This document shows positions 21,406 to 31,418 of a stretch of DNA of 64,000 nucleotides, piece by piece. The notes under the pieces are model-generated. The model ran no database searches, was not told the DNA's origin, and saw nothing but the letters and a program-made list of their open reading frames with translations. Both the position numbers and the translations under genes were made by a program. Every line of letters starts with the position of its first letter. Within the stretch, counting starts at the first letter, position 1. Source of the stretch: Immundisolibacterales bacterium (GTDB taxonomy: Bacteria; Pseudomonadota; Gammaproteobacteria; HK1); the NCBI GenBank assembly GCA_026712715.1, contig JAPOPW010000027.1, forward strand, positions 1 to 64,000, written 5' to 3'.

Positions 21406-23439
21406 TCAGAACGAGTACTTGACGGAGACGGCGACGAAGTCGCGGTCGCTCAGATCGCTGCCTTCGCCGGCGTATCGGGTGTAGCCGACGTCGGCCTCCC
21501 AGCGGCTGAGATAGTCGGCGCGAAGTCCGAGGGTGAGCGCCGTGCGTCCCTCCACGAACGAGCCGCTGGGCGTGGGACTGTTGCCGCCGACGTCGTGCTG
21601 GAGCTGCACGTAGGGAAACAGGTTCACTGCCCCGACCGCGTTGTTGAAGTCGAGCCGCGCGGCCATCCGGTAGCCCCAGGAGGTGGCGTCGGCGAGCGCT
21701 TCCTCGGTCTCGAGCTTGCCGCCGGCCGGGCTCTCCAGGGGCTTCACGCTCTTGTCCGGCATGCCGTGGACATGCATCAGGGCCACTTCGGTGAGGAACA
21801 CCAGGCCATCGGCACCGAGGGTGGGGCCGAGCACCCGGGTGGCGGTGGCCTGGACCTGGCTGACGTTGCGCCGGATGAAGCCGACGGTGTCCGCATCGTA
21901 GAGCCTCGCCGCGGCGTTCCTCCCCACGCACACCGGAGCGGCGGCCCCGGCGGCGAGGCAGTCGGTGAAGGGGGAGAGGGCGTCCGCGAACACGTCCTCC
22001 TCGGCACGCTGGAATGGCGCGCCGCGGCGGTAGGAGTACTCGCCCTGCAGCGCCCAGCCCGTCGTCCCGATCTCGGTGTTGAAGCTGACGCCGAAGAGCT
22101 GGATGTCCTCCGGGTACTCGACGAAGTAGTGCCCGGTCCTGGCGTAGGCGTCGATGCCCGCGGCCGGAGCGACGCCACCGGCGGCGGCCGACACCTGCGC
22201 CCGCGCCTGCGCCTCGGCGCCCATGGCGAGGGCAACGCATTGCGGGGAGGCGTCGGGAGACGGGCACCCCGCCTGTTGCAGGGCATCGGTCACGATTCCA
22301 CGAACGATCGCCGGGACGGCGGCGGCCACCTCTCCGGCGCGGGCCAGTCCAGTCCGTACCCCCTGGAGCGTTCCCGTACGCGCGGCGACGAGCGGCAGGC
22401 GGCTGTGGTAGTTCACGTAGTAGAAGCCGAAGTCGGTATTGCCCAGCTCCTCGGCGAGATAGCGAAGCGCGATGCCCCACTGGCCCGAGTCACCGGCCTC
22501 GTGGTCCTCCCCACGCGCCGCGTGCAGGAAATCGGGGTCCGGCCCGTAACCGAAGAGCGCGAAACCTGGGAAGAGCTCGCTGTCCGTGGTGAGGCCGGTG
22601 TCGCCGAGGTCCTCCGTGCCGGGGAGGGGAATCGCCGCGCTACTCGCCCCCGGTCCCACGTAGTCGGTGACGGAGAAGAAGCTTCCGACGGGATCGATCC
22701 GGGTCTGCTCCCAGTCGAGCTGGTAGAAGCCCTCCACCGAGAGAACGTCGGTGGGCGCCACCGAGGCCGAGACCATCGTCACCGGCAGCAGCGCCTCGCG
22801 CAGCTCCGCGCCCGGAAGCCGGATCTTGCTCACGTCGAAGGGGTTGACGACGCTGATTCCGTTCTGGATGAAGGTGCTCTCGCCCCAGTTGAGCACGTGC
22901 CGGCCGAAGCGGAGATCGAGGGCGGTATCGCCGAGGTCGAATGCGCCGGTGACGTAGAGGTCGAGCACTTCCACGTCCTTGCCCACCCGCTCCTTCGCGG
23001 CGGCGCTCAGGGGAGTGTTGTCCCGCCGGCCGTTCTCGTTCTCGAAGTCGAGGAACCCGGTGACCCGGGCGAAGGCGCCGAAGCCGCCGGTCCCGACATC
23101 GAGCTCGGTGGTGAACTTGGAGGTGTTGCTGACGAGCCCGCGGTCGTAGTTGCGGTTTCCGTCGTTGTCGTTGACCCCGGCGGCCAGCTCGAGGTCACGC
23201 TTGCCGACCCGGAACGTCAACCCGTGCGAAAGGGTGGTATCCAGGCTCCCCCGCAGGTCTCCCTCGGCGAACAGCTCGACGGCCGGCGCGGGCACCGCGA
23301 ACAGGATGCAGCCGAGCATGGCGGCACCCGTCGAAACGTGTAGAAGGGTGGATCGATCTTCCCGGCGCCGTCCGTTTCGGCGCCACGGCCTGCACGTCTG
23401 GAGCTCGCACGCGCGGCCCCGATTCTCGAGGTCTCTCAT
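21406..23439 (-). CDS. DUF1302 family outer-membrane beta-barrel, copy 1
   Basis: A 677-residue porin-like protein. The signal hydrophobic core (AAMLGCILFAVPAPAVE) begins only after about 35 residues. The mature part is rich in alternating aromatic strands and ends DRDFVAVSVKYSF, with the terminal Phe typical of outer-membrane barrels. Conserved DUF1302 blocks are LSHGLTFRVGKRDLEL, LRFGRHVLNWGEST and FYQLDWEQTRIDPVGSFF. A good ribosome-binding site (GGGAG) precedes the ATG at 23439. Likely a channel or lipid-transport barrel working with the DUF1329 partner. Confidence 0.88.
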   Translation of the reverse strand: MRDLENRGRACELQTCRPWRRNGRRREDRSTLLHVSTGAAMLGCILFAVPAPAVELFAEGDLRGSLDTTLSHGLTFRVGKRDLELAAGVNDNDGNRNYDRGLVSNTSKFTTELDVGTGGFGAFARVTGFLDFENENGRRDNTPLSAAAKERVGKDVEVLDLYVTGAFDLGDTALDLRFGRHVLNWGESTFIQNGISVVNPFDVSKIRLPGAELREALLPVTMVSASVAPTDVLSVEGFYQLDWEQTRIDPVGSFFSVTDYVGPGASSAAIPLPGTEDLGDTGLTTDSELFPGFALFGYGPDPDFLHAARGEDHEAGDSGQWGIALRYLAEELGNTDFGFYYVNYHSRLPLVAARTGTLQGVRTGLARAGEVAAAVPAIVRGIVTDALQQAGCPSPDASPQCVALAMGAEAQARAQVSAAAGGVAPAAGIDAYARTGHYFVEYPEDIQLFGVSFNTEIGTTGWALQGEYSYRRGAPFQRAEEDVFADALSPFTDCLAAGAAAPVCVGRNAAARLYDADTVGFIRRNVSQVQATATRVLGPTLGADGLVFLTEVALMHVHGMPDKSVKPLESPAGGKLETEEALADATSWGYRMAARLDFNNAVGAVNLFPYVQLQHDVGGNSPTPSGSFVEGRTALTLGLRADYLSRWEADVGYTRYAGEGSDLSDRDFVAVSVKYSF

Positions 23440-23772
23440 GAATGTCTCCCATCGAGCAAAGGGCGTGCCGCGTCGCCCCGTCTCCGACCCGGTGCCGGTG
23501 TTGCCCGCCCCGAATCACGTATTCCGGGCGATCCTGCCAGAAAACTCACTATTTTTCATATTTCGATCGGAAGCGGTCGAAGGGTGCGGGCGCGGCAAGG
23601 ACTTCTGCATGGGGTGGGGTGCCCGCGAAACGGTCTGCCCTTGACGGTCCCGCTCGAAGCGCCCGCCCGGAAGAATCGCCGACTCTCGTGCCTCCACGAG
23701 CGGATCGGCGTTCGCCGGCCAGGAACTCGGCGGTGTTCCCGGGGGGATGGTCACCGCGCCCGGCCGGCGGAA
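23440..23772 (-). promoter_or_regulatory. Leader/promoter region of DUF1302 copy 1 with conserved blocks
   Basis: No gene is seen in these 333 bases. Two blocks are shared with the region before the second DUF1302 gene. A 33-base block at 23449-23481 begins 10 bases before the start codon and has one mismatch between copies. A perfect 19-base block (CGGGCGATCCTGCCAGAAA, 23525-23543) begins 86 bases before the start. An AT-rich stretch with TTTCAT-TTTCG follows at 23554-23565. This is the likely promoter/operator. Sigma-54 spacing was tested and does not fit. Confidence 0.6.
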
Positions 23773-26121
23773 TCAGCGCCCGCGCCTCGTCAGCCAGGCA
23801 CCGAGCGCGGGGAGGAGGAGCACCGCACCGACCATGTTCACCAGGAACATGAAGGTCAGCACGGTGCCCATGTCGGCCTGGAACTTGAGGGGGGCGACGA
23901 TCCAGGTCGCGACCCCCGCGGCCAGGGTCAGCCCCGTCAGCACCACGCCGGCGCCGGTGGTGGCGAGGGTGCGCTCGTAGGCCGCCGCGAAGTCGAGTCC
24001 GTCGGCGAGGTGGCTGCGCAACCGCCCGTAGATGTAGATCCCGTAGTCCACCCCGATCCCGACCCCGAGGGCGACCACCGGAAGGGTCGAGACCTTGAGT
24101 CCGATCTCGAGCCGCGACATGAGCGCGTAGGCGAGCAGGGAGACGGCGGCGAGGGGCACGATGATGCACACCGTCGCCGCGACCGAGCGGAACGAGACGA
24201 GGCACAGCACGATGACCGCGGCATAGACGTAGCCGAGGATCGGGAACTGAGCGGCCTCGACCTCCTCGTTGGTCGCCGCCATGACCCCCACGTTGCCGGC
24301 GGCAAGGCGAAAGGTGATGCGTTCGTTCGGGTTGGCCGCGTTGAACGCCTTCACCGCGTCCACCGCCCGCTCGATCGTCTCCGCCCGGTGGTCGGCGGTG
24401 TAGATGGAGACCGGCATCACGCTGCAGTCGAGGTTCAGCAGTCCGCTCGAGGTCGGCACCGGCGAGACGGATTGCACGAGCGAGTATTGGTTTCGCGGCA
24501 GGGTCCGCCACTTGAGATTGCCTTCGTTCCAGTTCGAGTTGATGTTCCGGGCGATTCGCGCGAGCGAGAGCACGGACTGGACCCCGTCCACGTTGCGCAT
24601 GTGCCACTCGAAGTCGCCGAGCGTGCTCATCACCTCGTAGTCGATGCATCCTTCGGCCACCGTCTCCGCGATCACCGTCAGCACGTCCACCCCGATCTCG
24701 AATCGCTCGGTGATGACGGCGGTATCGCGGTTGTACACGGAGTCCGCGCGCAGCTCCGGAACCCCCCGTTGCTCGTCGCCGATCCGGACCTCGGTGGCGG
24801 GTCCGGCGGCGACCGCGACGAGGACCGCCGCCACCGCGACGACCACCGCCGCGGGACCCCGGCGCGCGACCCGCGCGACGCGAGACCAGAGTGGAAGCAG
24901 CCGCGCGTCGCGGGCCCGCGCCGCGCGCCGCTCCGCGTCGCCCGCCTCGTGGTAGGAGAGCAGCACGGGCAGCAGGGCGAGGTTGGTGAGGATGATCGCG
25001 GCCACCCCGAGGCTCGCCGCCACCGCGATCTCGCGAATGACCTGCACCTCGATGAAGGAGACGGTGATGAACCCGACCGAGTCCGAAGCGAGGGCCACCG
25101 TCCCGGGCAGCAGCAGCCGGCGAAAGCTCGTGCGTGCGGCGTCGAGGCCGCGCGCGCCGTCAATCGTCTCCGCCCGGACCGCGCTCACCATCTGGACGCC
25201 GTGGCTGACCCCGATCGCGAACACCAGGAACGGCACCAGGATGGACATCGGGTCGATCCCGAAGCCGAGGGCGGTGAGCCCGCCGAGCTGCCACACGACG
25301 GCGACGAGGGAGCAGGCGAGCGGCGGCACGGTGAGGCGGACCGAACGCGTGTAGAGGTACACGAACAGGGCCGTGACGAGGAACGCGACCCCGAAGAACG
25401 CAATGACCCGGATCGCGCCCGCCGCGATGTCCCCGACGACCTTGGCGAACCCGATGACATGCACGTTCGCCACCGGTTCGGAGCCGGCCATCGCCCGGCT
25501 GCGGATGCGCTCGAGCTCGTGCGCGACCTCGATGTAGTCGAGCCGCTCGCCGGTGTTCGGATGGAACTCCTGAAGCTTCGCGCTGACGATCGCCCCGGAG
25601 AAGTCGTTCGCCACCAGGCGCCCGACGATGCCGGCCTTGATGATGTTCTCGCGCACCCGGGCAAGGCCGGCCTCGGTCGGCTCGAAATCCGCCGGCACGA
25701 CGTTGCCGGCCGCGATGCCGTCCTCGACCACCTCGATGAAGCGCACGTTCGGCGTCACGAGGGAGTAGACCTGGGTCCGATCCACCCCGGGCAGGAAGAA
25801 CACCGCGTCGGTCACTTCGCGCAGCTTCGCGAAGAACTCGGGGGTGAACATGTCGCCCTCGCGTGCGACGAGCGCGATCAGCACCCGGTCCGCGCCGCCG
25901 AACTCGTCGCGGTGCTCGAGGAAGGTCTGCATGTACTCGTGCCCGAGCGGTACGAGCTTGGTGAAGCCGGCATCCACCCGGATGCCCGACGCGAGCCACC
26001 CCATCGCCAGGGTGACGAGGAGGAAGGCCGCGAGCACGAGACGCCGGCGCGCGAAGAGCAGGGCTTCGAGGCGGGCGGTCAAGGCGCGGCTCGGTGCGTT
26101 CCGGGCGAGGTGGCCGTGCAC
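23773..26121 (-). CDS. RND/MMPL-superfamily transporter (HAE3-like)
   Basis: A 782-residue inner-membrane protein with two halves of one plus five membrane helices. TM1 is RLVLAAFLLVTLAMGWLAS, and the first large periplasmic loop follows. SSD-like helix blocks contain VFAIGVSHGVQM (first half) and VALGVGIGVDYGIYIYGRL (second half), the latter with the charged residue used for proton coupling in RND pumps. The length is near that of HAE3/MmpL-like exporters. It is downstream of the Ycf48-like gene (92 bases) and between the two DUF1302/DUF1329 pairs. Probably moves a lipid or hydrophobic compound. Confidence 0.88.
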   Translation of the reverse strand: MHGHLARNAPSRALTARLEALLFARRRLVLAAFLLVTLAMGWLASGIRVDAGFTKLVPLGHEYMQTFLEHRDEFGGADRVLIALVAREGDMFTPEFFAKLREVTDAVFFLPGVDRTQVYSLVTPNVRFIEVVEDGIAAGNVVPADFEPTEAGLARVRENIIKAGIVGRLVANDFSGAIVSAKLQEFHPNTGERLDYIEVAHELERIRSRAMAGSEPVANVHVIGFAKVVGDIAAGAIRVIAFFGVAFLVTALFVYLYTRSVRLTVPPLACSLVAVVWQLGGLTALGFGIDPMSILVPFLVFAIGVSHGVQMVSAVRAETIDGARGLDAARTSFRRLLLPGTVALASDSVGFITVSFIEVQVIREIAVAASLGVAAIILTNLALLPVLLSYHEAGDAERRAARARDARLLPLWSRVARVARRGPAAVVVAVAAVLVAVAAGPATEVRIGDEQRGVPELRADSVYNRDTAVITERFEIGVDVLTVIAETVAEGCIDYEVMSTLGDFEWHMRNVDGVQSVLSLARIARNINSNWNEGNLKWRTLPRNQYSLVQSVSPVPTSSGLLNLDCSVMPVSIYTADHRAETIERAVDAVKAFNAANPNERITFRLAAGNVGVMAATNEEVEAAQFPILGYVYAAVIVLCLVSFRSVAATVCIIVPLAAVSLLAYALMSRLEIGLKVSTLPVVALGVGIGVDYGIYIYGRLRSHLADGLDFAAAYERTLATTGAGVVLTGLTLAAGVATWIVAPLKFQADMGTVLTFMFLVNMVGAVLLLPALGAWLTRRGR

Positions 26122-26213
26122 CGGCTCATGTCACGTCGCCGCCGCGCCGCTGCGCTCGGAGGCGACCGACCCGACTCGTCCCGGGCGATCGGAATGCGCC
26201 CGACTGTCGGCAC

Positions 26214-27278
26214 CTACTCGACCGGAGGCAGGCGACGGACGCCGAATTCGCCGACGATGAGCGACCCGCCACCGGCGAGCGGTACCGCCGCGGAAACCCC
26301 CTGGCGCGAGGGCAGTCGGGTCAGCGCGACGCTGCGGCCATCATCGCGGCTCGTCAGCAGGGTTCCATCGAGGCCGGTCATCAGCACGATTCCGGACGGC
26401 AGCCTGATCGCACCCGTCAAGGTCGCATTCGAGCCGGACGCGACCCGCGTCCAGGTCTCGCCCGCGTCGGGCGAACGAAAGAGGTGTCCGCGAAGACCGG
26501 TCAGCAGCACCGCGTCCGCATCGAGCGCAAGGGCCCCGAACCACGAGCCGAGGTAGGGAGGGGACAGCTCCACCCACGTCTCGCCGTCATCGTCGGATCG
26601 GTATGCGACTCCCGCTTCGGCCGCGAGATACAACCGCTTCGCGCCGGCCGGGGCCAGCGCGTTCAGGTGGTAGTCGTCCTGGCTGATCGCCCTCGCGCTC
26701 CACGTGTCGCCGCCATCGTCCGTCGCGAGGAAGAAGCCGTAGGCTCCGACCGCAAACCCGCGGTGCTCGTCGCGGAACCACACGTCGAGCAGGGGGCGCT
26801 CCTCCTCGGGCGCCTGGTGGACGAGCTGCCAGGTCTCGCCGCCGTCGCGGGTGCGAAGGATCACCGCGTCGTGCCCGACCGCCCACCCCGAGCGCTCGTC
26901 GTGCAGGTGCACGGCGGTGAGGAGGGCGCGGGTCGGGGTTCGGGCCAGCTTCCAGCTTTCCCCGCCGTCGGCGGAGACGATGACCCGTCCGCGCTCCCCG
27001 ACCGCCACCACTCTCGGTCCGGCGACCGCCGCATCGAGGAGCAGCGACTCGACGGCAAGCGGATCGTCGGGCGGGGTCGGATCGTCCGCTCCGGCCGGCG
27101 TGAGGCTCGGCGTTCCGAGGAGGGCCGCGAGCAGCCCGGCGAGCGCAATGCGCCGCACGGGGCGGGCATCGGACCTCGTCCGCCCGGCTTCCGTTGCGGA
27201 CACCTCCGACGAAGCGGGTCCCGGCCCGCCCGGGCGCCGTCGCCGCCGAGGGATCCCGAAGGAGCGGTGGCGATTCAT
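26214..27278 (-). CDS. Ycf48/BNR-repeat beta-propeller, exported
   Basis: A 354-residue protein with a signal-like segment at about residues 42-65 (RRIALAGLLAALLGTPSLTP). It then has repeated blades with the BNR/Asp-box pattern S.D.G.TW: SADGGESWKLAR, TRDGGETWQLV, TDDGGDTWSA, SDDDGETWVEL and SPDAGETWTRV. Ycf48-like propellers in photosynthetic organisms help assemble photosystem II; in heterotrophs they recur beside RND and DUF1302/DUF1329 genes with unknown role. The ATG at 27278 gives a long basic N-terminus; an in-frame GTG at 27158 would start right at the signal peptide and may be the true start. Confidence 0.82.
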   Translation of the reverse strand: MNRHRSFGIPRRRRRPGGPGPASSEVSATEAGRTRSDARPVRRIALAGLLAALLGTPSLTPAGADDPTPPDDPLAVESLLLDAAVAGPRVVAVGERGRVIVSADGGESWKLARTPTRALLTAVHLHDERSGWAVGHDAVILRTRDGGETWQLVHQAPEEERPLLDVWFRDEHRGFAVGAYGFFLATDDGGDTWSARAISQDDYHLNALAPAGAKRLYLAAEAGVAYRSDDDGETWVELSPPYLGSWFGALALDADAVLLTGLRGHLFRSPDAGETWTRVASGSNATLTGAIRLPSGIVLMTGLDGTLLTSRDDGRSVALTRLPSRQGVSAAVPLAGGGSLIVGEFGVRRLPPVE

Positions 27279-27324
27279 CCTCGGAGAATGGCCATCCGGA
27301 CGCCCGGGCCGGTCCGCGGTCCGC

Positions 27325-28695
27325 TCACCGCCGGCCTTCGCGGCGCAGGGCGCCCGGCGTGAAGTCCCGGGAGGTGAAGTCGAGATCCCACGCGCACATC
27401 GGAAATTCGTTGTCTAGCCCGGAGGCGAAGTAGCGCCCCGCCTGGAGGTCGGTGTGCACCGTGAGGGTCGGCCACACGAGCGGCTTCTCGTAGTAGTTGA
27501 TCACGTGGCCCTCCGACACGCGCCAGAGCTGGTCGCGATTGTCGTAGATGTCGGCGACGAGAATCGACCAGGAGTCCTCGTCCACGTAGAACGTGCGCCG
27601 CTTGTAGAGATGCGTCGTGCCGTCCTTGAGGGTCGCCTCGACCACCCACACCCGATGGAGCTCGTAGCGAAGGTGCTCCGGGTCTACGTGCAGCGGCTTC
27701 AGAACGTCGGTGAACGCGAGGTCGTCACCGTGGAGCCGGTACGCGTTGTACGGAACGTACATCTCGCGCTTTCCGGCGAGGGTCCAGTGGTAGCGGTCCA
27801 CCACTCCGTTGAACATGTCGACCTGATCGGCGGTACGCAGCCCGTCGGAAATGGAGCCGGGGTTGTCGTAGGCGACGTTCGGCGCCCGGCGTACCCGCCG
27901 CTGGCCGGGGTTGTACACCCATGCCCGGCGCGTCTCGCGGACCTGGTTGATGGTCTCGTGCACGAGGAGAAGGTCGCCGGCGAGCCGGGGCGGGGCCAAG
28001 ACCCTCTGCTTGTACAGGATCATCGTGTTGCCGAGCGCCGCGCGGGTCATGCCCGGCAGCGAGTAGCGAAGCTCGACCTCGACCCGGCTCTTGACGAGGG
28101 TGTAGGCCCCGCCGCGGGTCACCGCGGCCTGGCCGACGATGCACGACACCGATTCGCCCCGGTAGCGCAGCAGGTGGTTCCAGATCACCTCGAGGCCGCT
28201 CTCCGGGATCGGGAACGGAATGCCGATGACGGCCCCGCCGACGCCGTTGCCGTCGTCCACGAGCTCCGCGGCGGCCGCCGCGGCGCGGGTGGCGTCGTAG
28301 ATCCGCGGCGGGGCGGACGCGCTCCGTCGGGTCGGATAGACCGGCATGCGGAACGTCGGATAGGTCTCGAGCATGCGCTGGTGACCGACCGAGAGCCGAT
28401 CGCGGTGCTCGTCGAGGTTCCCGGCGTCGATGACGAAGAGCGGCTCGTCGCCGGCGTACGGGTCGCGGTGGTGCTGGCCGACGGTGTAGCCCTCCGGCGG
28501 CCGCGTGATGCCGCCGGTCCATTCGGGGATGGTGCCCTCCGCGTTGCCGGCCCGCTCCGCCCCGAGCGGCGTCAGATCGCGGCCGAGCCGCGCGATCTCC
28601 TCGGTGGAGACCCCGGCGGCGGCGGGGTGAGCGGCGACCCACCCGAGCGCGAGGGCGGCGGCGGTTCGAACAAGGCTCCGGCTCCCGGCATGCAT
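27325..28695 (-). CDS. DUF1329 family exported protein, copy 2
   Basis: A 456-residue paralogue of the protein at 20024-21394, with identical length and the same block order (GRDLTPLGAERAGNAEGTIP, VTRGGAYTLVK, YNPGQRRVRRAPN, YKRRTFYVDEDSWSILVADI). Signal peptide about residues 1-28 (LVRTAAALALGWVAAHPAAA). Divergence is spread over the whole length, so the duplication is not very recent. It lies 11 bases after the second DUF1302 gene, exactly the spacing of the first pair, and 46 bases before the Ycf48-like gene. Confidence 0.88.
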   Translation of the reverse strand: MHAGSRSLVRTAAALALGWVAAHPAAAGVSTEEIARLGRDLTPLGAERAGNAEGTIPEWTGGITRPPEGYTVGQHHRDPYAGDEPLFVIDAGNLDEHRDRLSVGHQRMLETYPTFRMPVYPTRRSASAPPRIYDATRAAAAAAELVDDGNGVGGAVIGIPFPIPESGLEVIWNHLLRYRGESVSCIVGQAAVTRGGAYTLVKSRVEVELRYSLPGMTRAALGNTMILYKQRVLAPPRLAGDLLLVHETINQVRETRRAWVYNPGQRRVRRAPNVAYDNPGSISDGLRTADQVDMFNGVVDRYHWTLAGKREMYVPYNAYRLHGDDLAFTDVLKPLHVDPEHLRYELHRVWVVEATLKDGTTHLYKRRTFYVDEDSWSILVADIYDNRDQLWRVSEGHVINYYEKPLVWPTLTVHTDLQAGRYFASGLDNEFPMCAWDLDFTSRDFTPGALRREGRR

Positions 28696-28706
28696 TGCAC
28701 GCGCCC

Positions 28707-30911
28707 TCAGAAGGAGAACTTGACTGACGCGGAGAGGAAGTCGCGGTCGTACCGCGTGTCGCTCCGGCCGCCATACATCGTGAGGCCGACATTGGCCTGC
28801 CAGCGCTTGAGGTAGTCGGCGCCGACGCCGACGGTGAGCGCGGTCCGGCCTTCGGCGAACTGACCGATGGGGGTCGGGCCGTTGCCGTCCACGTCGTGTC
28901 CCCATTGCACGAAGGGAAACAGCCCGACCGCCCCGATCGCGTTGCTGTACCGCAGACGGGCCGAGATCCGGTATCCCCAGGACAGCGAGTCGGCGTCGGC
29001 GCTCTCTTCGGAGTCGGACAGACGGCGCGGCCGGGCGGGACTCTCGATGCGATGCCCCTGCGTCAGTCCGTGCACCCGCATGATCGCGACCTCGGACGCC
29101 ACGGTCAGGCCGTCGGCTCCGAGTCGGGGCCCGAACGCCTTCGTCGCGGTGACCTGGACCTGGCTCACGTCGTGCCGGGCGTACCCGACGACATCGTCGG
29201 GCCGGTGCTGCTCGATGTGCTCGCTCAGGGATCGCGCGAAATAGGCCGACGGGAGGACCTCTCCCGTCCTCGGATTCCGGTCACAGGTCTCTTCTGCGGG
29301 GGCTCTCACGCATCCGGCCAGCTCGAGCGCTTCGGAAATCGGGAGAATGCCCTCGCCGACCAGAACGTCCTGGGCGCGCTGCAGCGGGGTGTCGATGTGC
29401 AGGGTGTACTCGCCCTGCAAGGTCCACCCGGACGCTCCGAGCTCCGTGTTGAAGCTCAGGCCGAAAAATCGAATGCCCTCGGGGTACTCGAGAAAGTAGT
29501 GCCCGGTTGCACCCCGGCGGTCCACGGTCTCGGCGTACCGATCGATTGCGAGCGCGGTCGCGATGCCCGAAACCCGCGGTCCGACCTGCCTTTCCACTTC
29601 CGCTGTCACCCTTCTTTCGATGAGCGCCGGGGCGGCGGCGCGTTCGAGCGTTCCGGCCGCGACCGCGGCCATGCCCCTCGCGGTGACCTCCCTCGTCACC
29701 TCCGGGGCGACCGAGCCGGCAAGAGCGGTCGAAGTCGCAGAGCCCGGCGCGCCGACCGCCCCCGCGGCCGCGAGCCCGGCCTGGATTGCTGCCGTGCCGG
29801 CGGTGCGCGCGGAGATGAGCGGGAGGCGGCTGTGGTAGCGGCCGAAGTACAGGCCGAGCTCGGTTTGGTTCAAGTCTTCGGCGAGATGGCGCAGCGCGAC
29901 CCCCCACTGGCCCGAGTCGCCCGAAAGACGGTCCGGGCCGCGCGCCACGCTCATGAAATCGGGCTCGTGTGCGCGATAGGGCGGCAGCCGGGAACGGGCG
30001 AGGTCCGCGTTGATGGCCGGGGTGAGCCGCCCGAAGCCGAACTCGCGGTCGACTTCGCTGCCGTACGCACCCAGGAGCGGCCGGAACCGTTCGCTGTTGA
30101 CCACCACCTCGGTCGCCCCCGGGCCGGCCACGTCGTTCGTCGAGAAGAAGCTGCCGACCGGGTCGAGCACCGTCTCCTCCCACTCGAGCTGGTAGAAGCC
30201 CTCCACCGTCAGGGTGTCGCTCGGGGCCGCCGACACCGAGACCATCGAAACCGGTGCGAGGGCCTCGCGCAGCTCCGAGCCCGGCAGCCGGAGCTTGCCG
30301 ACGTCGTAGCGATTGAACGCATTGATGCCGCCGCCGATGAAGGTGCTCTCGCCCCAGTTCAGCACGTGTCTCCCGAGGCGCAGATCGACCGGCGCGCCGC
30401 CCGGCTCGAAGGCGCCGGTGACGTAGGCGTCGAGGACTTCGAAGTCCTTTCCGACGATGTCCTTCGCTTCTCCGCTCAACGGGGTGCGGGCGCGCGCGCC
30501 GTTCTCGTTCTCGAAGTCGACGAATCCGGTGGCGCGCAGGAATGCGCCGAAGCGCCGGTTGCCGAGGTCGAGGTCGGTGGTGACCTTGGAGGTGTTGCTC
30601 ACCACACCCCGGCCGTAGTTGAGATTCCCGTCGTTGGAGTTGGCGGACCGGAAGTCATTGACCCTTGCCTCGCGCCCCTCGATGCGAAACGTCAGGCCAT
30701 GCGACAAGGTGGTGTCGAGGGTTCCCTCGAGCGCGCCCTCGCCGAATTCGATGGCGGGCGCGGACAGCGCGAACAGCAGGCAACCGAGCGCGGCGGTGCC
30801 CGCCGGAATGCCGAAGAACACGGAACGATCCGCCGGCCGCCGGCCGCTTCGACGCCACGGTCGACCCGTGCGGAGCCCGCCCGCGGAGCCCCGACCCTCA
30901 AGGTCGTGCAT
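28707..30911 (-). CDS. DUF1302 family outer-membrane beta-barrel, copy 2
   Basis: A 734-residue paralogue of the protein at 21406-23439, ending YDRDFLSASVKFSF. The same barrel blocks are present (LRLGRHVLNWGEST, FYQLEWEETVLDPVGSFF). It is longer because of an alanine-rich, probably helical insertion at about residues 385-460. The unusual charged N-terminal extension before the signal core (GRPWRRSGRRPADRS) is shared with copy 1 (CRPWRRNGRRREDRS), supporting the long start. Likely an outer-membrane channel; substrate unknown. Confidence 0.88.
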   Translation of the reverse strand: MHDLEGRGSAGGLRTGRPWRRSGRRPADRSVFFGIPAGTAALGCLLFALSAPAIEFGEGALEGTLDTTLSHGLTFRIEGREARVNDFRSANSNDGNLNYGRGVVSNTSKVTTDLDLGNRRFGAFLRATGFVDFENENGARARTPLSGEAKDIVGKDFEVLDAYVTGAFEPGGAPVDLRLGRHVLNWGESTFIGGGINAFNRYDVGKLRLPGSELREALAPVSMVSVSAAPSDTLTVEGFYQLEWEETVLDPVGSFFSTNDVAGPGATEVVVNSERFRPLLGAYGSEVDREFGFGRLTPAINADLARSRLPPYRAHEPDFMSVARGPDRLSGDSGQWGVALRHLAEDLNQTELGLYFGRYHSRLPLISARTAGTAAIQAGLAAAGAVGAPGSATSTALAGSVAPEVTREVTARGMAAVAAGTLERAAAPALIERRVTAEVERQVGPRVSGIATALAIDRYAETVDRRGATGHYFLEYPEGIRFFGLSFNTELGASGWTLQGEYTLHIDTPLQRAQDVLVGEGILPISEALELAGCVRAPAEETCDRNPRTGEVLPSAYFARSLSEHIEQHRPDDVVGYARHDVSQVQVTATKAFGPRLGADGLTVASEVAIMRVHGLTQGHRIESPARPRRLSDSEESADADSLSWGYRISARLRYSNAIGAVGLFPFVQWGHDVDGNGPTPIGQFAEGRTALTVGVGADYLKRWQANVGLTMYGGRSDTRYDRDFLSASVKFSF

Positions 30912-31418
30912 GCGCTCCCTCCATCGAGCAATGGGCGTGCCGCGTCGCCCCGTGATTGACCCGGAGTCGAGGACGTCCGCCCCAGGTCACGTCGTGCGGG
31001 CGATCCTGCCAGAAACTTCGACTTCTTTCATGTTTCGCGCGAACGTGGGCGCAGCGCGAAGGCACGGCGATGAATCTCCGCCTTTTCCGCTTCCGGTGGT
31101 TCGGTTCCCCCCCCGCGAGCGCGAGCCGTGCGCTCGGGAACGACTTGCCACGCTGCACGGCCGGCTCCGGTGGCATGCGCGGGGAGTCGGCATGACGGCG
31201 TTCCGGATTGGTCTCGTTCCGGAGAACGATCGGACGAACGGGTGGCCGGCGCGCCGTTCCGGCGCACGCCGCGAGCTTCCCCCTTCCGGAGCCGTCACGG
31301 CCGCCGGCCGCTCGGTGAGGAAAACACCGTGGATCGATGCGAAACTACGCGCGCGCGGCGGGTCCTCGCCGCCCCCGACACACAGCACCCGCGCGTACGG
31401 GTGCGGGAGGAGGAGGAG
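30912..31418. promoter_or_regulatory. Divergent intergenic region, DUF1302 copy 2 / VOC gene
   Basis: These 507 bases hold no convincing gene. On the minus side they repeat the leader of DUF1302 copy 1: the 33-base block at 30921-30953 and the perfect 19-base block at 30997-31015, followed by TTTCATGTTTCG around 31026-31037. The blocks sit at the same distances from the start codon as in copy 1. The plus side leads to the VOC gene with a strong purine-rich ribosome-binding site. No clear promoter hexamers were seen for the VOC gene. Confidence 0.55.

Follow-up and report, generated by a model that had tools for sequence, protein, structure and literature searches.

Two DUF1302 genes on the minus strand of contig JAPOPW010000027.1, from an Immundisolibacterales bacterium, are preceded by nearly identical short blocks of sequence at the same distances from their start codons, which raised the question of what these blocks do and how two genes came to carry them. 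The window analysed was the whole stretch of 64,000 nucleotides (positions 1 to 64,000 of the forward strand). As judged from sequence, the best single reading is that the blocks belong to a structured 5' leader RNA that acts in cis within an AmeABCD-type gene cluster, to which we would assign a probability of a little under one half (about 0.47).

The gene cluster and its two leaders

The AmeABCD gene set (DUF1302, DUF1329, YCF48/BNR and RND/MMPL) was found adjacent on one strand. Read along the minus strand, the order is DUF1302 gene 2, DUF1329, YCF48/BNR, the MMPL/RND pump and DUF1302 gene 1.

21406-23439, minus strand: DUF1302 gene 1, AmeA-like outer-membrane protein, 677 aa (PF06980, 537.9 bits; ATG at 23439)
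23773-26121, minus strand: MMPL/RND transporter, AmeD-like
26214-27278, minus strand: YCF48/BNR protein, AmeC-like
27325-28905 (ORF limits), minus strand: DUF1329, AmeB-like periplasmic LolA-like protein
28707-30911, minus strand: DUF1302 gene 2, AmeA-like outer-membrane protein, 734 aa (PF06980, 477.2 bits; ATG at 30911)
23437-23545, minus strand: leader element copy 1, from the 19-base block to the ATG, before the ameA-like gene 1
30909-31017, minus strand: leader element copy 2, from the 19-base block to the ATG, before the ameA-like gene 2

As listed, the DUF1329 reading frame shares approximately 200 bases (28707-28905) with the end of DUF1302 gene 2; its true start is probably farther downstream, near 28700. 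The proteins of this DUF1302 group (starts at 23437-23439 and the homologous starts of L018-L024 and L045-L047) have an unusually long N-terminal region, with approximately 40 residues before the hydrophobic signal core and often an MRN-x-x-E start.

Clusters of DUF1302, DUF1329 and RND genes are common systems for the transport of hydrophobic compounds, and little is known of their control. In Castellaniella defragrans, AmeABCD is an apolar monoterpene efflux cassette made up of the DUF1302 protein AmeA, the DUF1329 protein AmeB, AmeC and the HAE3-type RND pump AmeD (PMC6394551). The present locus is similar in that DUF1302, DUF1329, YCF48/BNR and HAE3-type RND pump genes are clustered; it differs in the presence of an extra, non-sister DUF1302 gene after the pump gene, with the same leader. 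The DUF1302 family had two matches over the cut-off in the whole genome.

Alignment of both leaders confirmed the preliminary description of a 33-base block with one mismatch, whose end lies 10 bases from the A of each ATG, and of a perfect 19-base block farther upstream, at distances that are equal in the two genes. The 19-base block, TTTCTGGCAGGATCGCCCG, was identical at 19/19 positions between 23525-23543 and 30997-31015, and the 33-base block, ACGGGGCGACGCGGCACGCCC[T/A]TTGCTCGATGG, at 32/33 between 23449-23481 and 30921-30953 (both on the minus strand). The distance of 86 bases originally given for the 19-base block is correct for its downstream end; the far end lies 104 bases from the start codon. 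When up to three mismatches were allowed, this block had two matches in the window, both of them the known copies, compared to an expectation of 0.01.

Without gaps, the two leaders were 74% identical from approximately -127 to the ATG; farther upstream the identity was at the background level (approximately 26-42%). The 32 differences over 120 leader columns left identical runs of 21 and 19, and runs of this length would arise under random placement of the differences with P = 1.3e-4; their clustering is not due to chance. The much greater divergence of the coding regions shows that the blocks have been conserved far more strongly than neutrality would predict, and a regulatory element common to both leaders is likely.

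Ancestry of the two genes and their shared 5' region

The proteins encoded by genes 1 and 2 were 56% identical, and at identical residues of the four-fold type 52% of third codon positions were identical, which for DNA of 70% GC is near saturation. A maximum-likelihood tree of the mature domains placed gene 1 with L018, L021 (from the same genus) and L044 (support 100/100); gene 2 fell with L024 (100/99) and, at the next level, with L045-L047 (92/95). The two are thus not sisters: each clusters with homologues of other genomes. A recent whole-gene duplication was ruled out by the protein identity, the near-saturated third positions and these non-sister positions. The preliminary description had allowed that the similarity might run uniformly through the genes after a very recent duplication; this was excluded by the third positions, the tree and the limitation of the identity to the leader. 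Because the genes are not sisters, the shared blocks cannot be a mere leftover of recent duplication.

The similarity does continue into the beginning of the coding regions. The first 55 residues of the two proteins were 58% identical, and either protein was at most 35% identical to any other homologue over this segment. The segments concerned are as follows.

23275-23439, minus strand: codons 1-55 of gene 1 (5' module; long signal-peptide region)
30747-30911, minus strand: codons 1-55 of gene 2 (5' module; long signal-peptide region)

Only the leader and the first 55 or so codons are shared in this way, which looks like an exchanged 5' module. Because of the tree and the identities, we infer that, in this lineage, one old paralogue probably received the leader and signal-peptide region of the other, after which the two copies diverged. 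The simplest account of the two blocks would be that they were held by selection after this copying.

Predicted leader RNA and alternative explanations

Mutual pairing of the two blocks is possible. The strands of the predicted stems are distributed over the leaders as follows, with the same stem strands in both copies of the 33-base block.

23525-23543, minus strand: 19-base block copy 1, 5' strands of P0 (23541-23533) and P1 (23531-23526)
30997-31015, minus strand: 19-base block copy 2, 5' strands of P0 (31013-31005) and P1 (31003-30998)
23485-23517, minus strand: spacer of copy 1, variable arm P2, 12 pairs
30957-30989, minus strand: spacer of copy 2, variable arm P2, 12 pairs
23449-23481, minus strand: 33-base block copy 1, 3' strand of P1 (23478-23473), P3 hairpin (23471-23463) and 3' strand of P0 (23462-23452)
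30921-30953, minus strand: 33-base block copy 2, same stem strands as copy 1

On the sense strand the predicted overall shape is a three-way junction. It is closed by P0, in which UC-GGCAGG of the 19-base block pairs with CC-UGCU-GA of the 33-base block; P1 (UCGCCC with GGGCGA) joins the two blocks, the spacer makes the variable arm P2, and a small GCG-GCA-CGC hairpin forms P3. In both copies, each of the 29 consensus pairs was a standard one. The element contained 18 differences, 13 of them at unpaired positions, including the single mismatch of the 33-base block; the remaining five were in pairs and were all one-sided and G-U compatible. There was no double-sided compensatory change, and P0, P1 and P3 are invariant and so, with two sequences, provide no test of covariation. 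The 12 pairs of P2 were kept in both copies through G-U compatible changes; they survived random spacer substitutions of the same number and kind with P of approximately 0.0006-0.0008, and with P of approximately 0.008 when five changes were forced into paired positions.

RNAalifold gave -29.4 for a 61-nt core, compared to -13.8 ± 3.2 for column shuffles. The z-score of this core was -5.06 (the minimum among 138 coding control windows from both strands of the same two genes was -2.22), for a window picked as the best after inspection of the fold; wider windows gave p = 0.007 to 0.042. The reverse complement of the core reached only -15.2, which is expected because the G-U pairs belong to the sense RNA. 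Folding energies of the single sequences were ordinary (z between -0.9 and +0.1), and the minimum-energy folds of copies 1 and 2 disagreed. A conserved secondary structure on the sense strand was found, on two sequences only. The preliminary description had proposed a shared regulatory element in DNA or in the leader RNA; the shared element is well supported, and RNA fits better than DNA because the blocks pair mutually and the spacer pairing was kept despite its changed sequence.

A purine-rich Shine-Dalgarno sequence (GGGAG / GGAGGGAG) is kept directly after the element in both copies, and the message should therefore include the leader. Whereas the conservation pattern, the consensus pairing and the 5' module on non-sister genes are observed, it is inferred that the leader is transcribed, that it regulates and that it works as a switch. 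The two blocks would be the two sides of one cis-acting leader RNA of approximately 90 nt that ends beside the ribosome-binding site of each ameA-like gene and would act at the start of translation. Formation of P0 would hold a GCUC just upstream of the Shine-Dalgarno sequence; when freed, this GCUC could pair with the GAG(C) of the Shine-Dalgarno sequence (a weak alternative of only 3-4 bp, spotted by eye), and folding in response to a ligand, a protein or temperature would alter ribosome access. Both outer-membrane components of one AmeABCD-type exporter would in this manner be tied to one signal, the leader and signal-peptide region having presumably moved between the genes in this lineage. 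Consensus scans upstream of the leader and in the intergenic regions found no sigma-70 promoter and no intrinsic terminator.

The main rival to a leader RNA treats the 33-base block as a sigma-54 (RpoN) promoter and takes the 19-base block for the upstream site of its activator, which would give enhancer-dependent co-induction of the two genes. We regard this as possible but doubtful. Each 33-base block contains a perfect -24/-12-like motif:

23455-23470, minus strand: sigma-54 motif CGGCACGCCCTTTGCT, within the 33-base block copy 1
30927-30942, minus strand: sigma-54 motif CGGCACGCCCATTGCT, within the 33-base block copy 2

Like known sigma-54 promoters, both sites match YGGCACG-N4-TTGCW at 12/12 specified positions with the correct spacing; they are the sole two in the window, and the only mismatch between the 33-base blocks falls in the N4. 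The 5.05-Mb genome retains rpoN and has four such motifs, two of them in these leaders. The third (L012:1501-1516) is located approximately 100 bases upstream of a gene for a PII protein (glnB/glnK type). Such genes are classical sigma-54 targets, and for this reason the motif carries meaning here; the fourth lies within a coding region. AphR belongs to the sigma-54 activators. For Burkholderia sp. 383, control by AphR has been predicted for a similar cassette (DUF1302-DUF1329-RND-COG4447; PMC6449761). However, the genome-wide count was not above that of a control pattern (4 vs 5), and the motif is missing upstream of the homologues. Transcription normally starts approximately 12 nt after the GC element, which would put +1 just 3-5 nt upstream of the AUG, leaving the Shine-Dalgarno sequence out of the message. 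Since leaderless messages do occur in bacteria, with 171 in Sinorhizobium meliloti (PMC3616915), this geometry merely lowers the probability of a sigma-54 promoter. No dedicated activator was found, the only canonical one in the assembly (97.9% complete) being NtrC (L006), and no NtrC-like site was seen by eye. Nor does a sigma-54 promoter account for the inter-block pairing or for the spacer changes that keep pairs through G-U. If the leader RNA is the correct reading, the sigma-54 motif would be present by chance only; both could also be partly true, for example if sigma-54 holoenzyme acted as a bound roadblock. NtrC is apparently the sole canonical sigma-54 activator in this 5-Mb genome, and an NtrX-like response regulator (L007, own genome, contig C82) was without the GAFTGA motif.

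It is less probable that the shared region is a passive relic, in which a promoter and signal-peptide region were recombined between the genes; the blocks would then be ordinary promoter or leader positions that chance or recency has preserved, and no dedicated regulator would be involved. A 5' module on two non-sister genes does need recombination, and by eye third-position identity in the first 30 codons was slightly above that of the rest; against a relic, the differences are strongly clustered outside the blocks (P = 1.3e-4) and the spacer pairing has been preserved. Attenuation by a leader peptide appears highly improbable. The 19-base block would then encode SGRIAR within an upstream reading frame of 14 codons (MKNSEFSGRIARNT / MKEVEVSGRIARTT; 23515-23559 and 30987-31031) that is in frame with the gene and does not differ between the copies in start, stop or length. 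This small frame has no recognisable Shine-Dalgarno sequence before it and was present in no relative, its differences show neither third-position bias nor any codon-like pattern, and the conservation extends beyond it into the 33-base block. An upstream extension of the protein N-terminus was rejected because the stretch from the in-frame stop to the ATG offers no usable start codon.

Distribution of the leader and leaders of related genes

The element is private to this lineage, with one genome so far. The blocks were absent before the DUF1302 homologues of the other genomes examined, so that other species do, literally, keep the genes without the blocks. The preliminary description had named this as evidence against a shared element; it reads here as a sign of a lineage-private element and not of a meaningless one. 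The genome-wide and relative-wide search it proposed found two copies only in the own genome, which ruled out a genome-wide repeat, and no copy in the leaders of homologues; a family-wide DNA search gave no third copy of the leader. A covariance model run against 369 genomes of the class found the two known copies alone and, run against the DUF1302 relatives (also unfiltered), no credible match. Neither leader matched any of 4227 Rfam families at E values up to 10.

The leaders of L021 and L024 were considered as divergent versions of the element and rejected as marginal (p = 0.007 and 0.02 among 18 comparisons). An ancestral leader pushed upstream by an insertion, suggested by a GATTCATCGCCG-like stretch near -165 of copy 2, was not significant.

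Compared to riboswitches and to ribosomal-protein and thermosensor leaders, the predicted element is similar in having conserved islands that pair around a variable arm and in ending at a Shine-Dalgarno sequence, and it is carried, as structured cis-regulatory leaders are, by more than one gene of one function. It is unlike them in that it has no Rfam match and two known copies. We consider it unlikely, if somewhat less so than a passive relic, that the full form of the proposal holds: a new, lineage-private leader RNA, copied with a signal-peptide segment onto a distant second outer-membrane gene and uniting their control, possibly as a riboswitch for the exported hydrophobic compound or as a protein-bound leader. 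If true, it would be a natural case of a regulatory RNA and signal-peptide module spreading between two old paralogues, and a compact element testable with reporters, in which the two copies with different P2 arms provide a built-in comparison.

The leaders of the homologues resembled each other, for example those of L018-L022 over approximately 190 bases and those of L020, L046 and L047 over 75-110; their resemblance to the leaders of genes 1 and 2 was absent or marginal. When these leaders were tested for a consensus structure of their own, nothing significant was found. The DUF1302 gene of L021, from the same genus, has an in-frame TAG at codon 458 and is either a pseudogene or the product of an assembly error. 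L018, L020, L021, L022, L046 and L047 have in common a conserved leader of another kind in the approximately 200 bases before the DUF1302 start; it includes a GGATTCATYGCCGC-like stretch approximately 40 bases upstream of the ATG and, after this stretch, the ribosome site GACRGGGGA.
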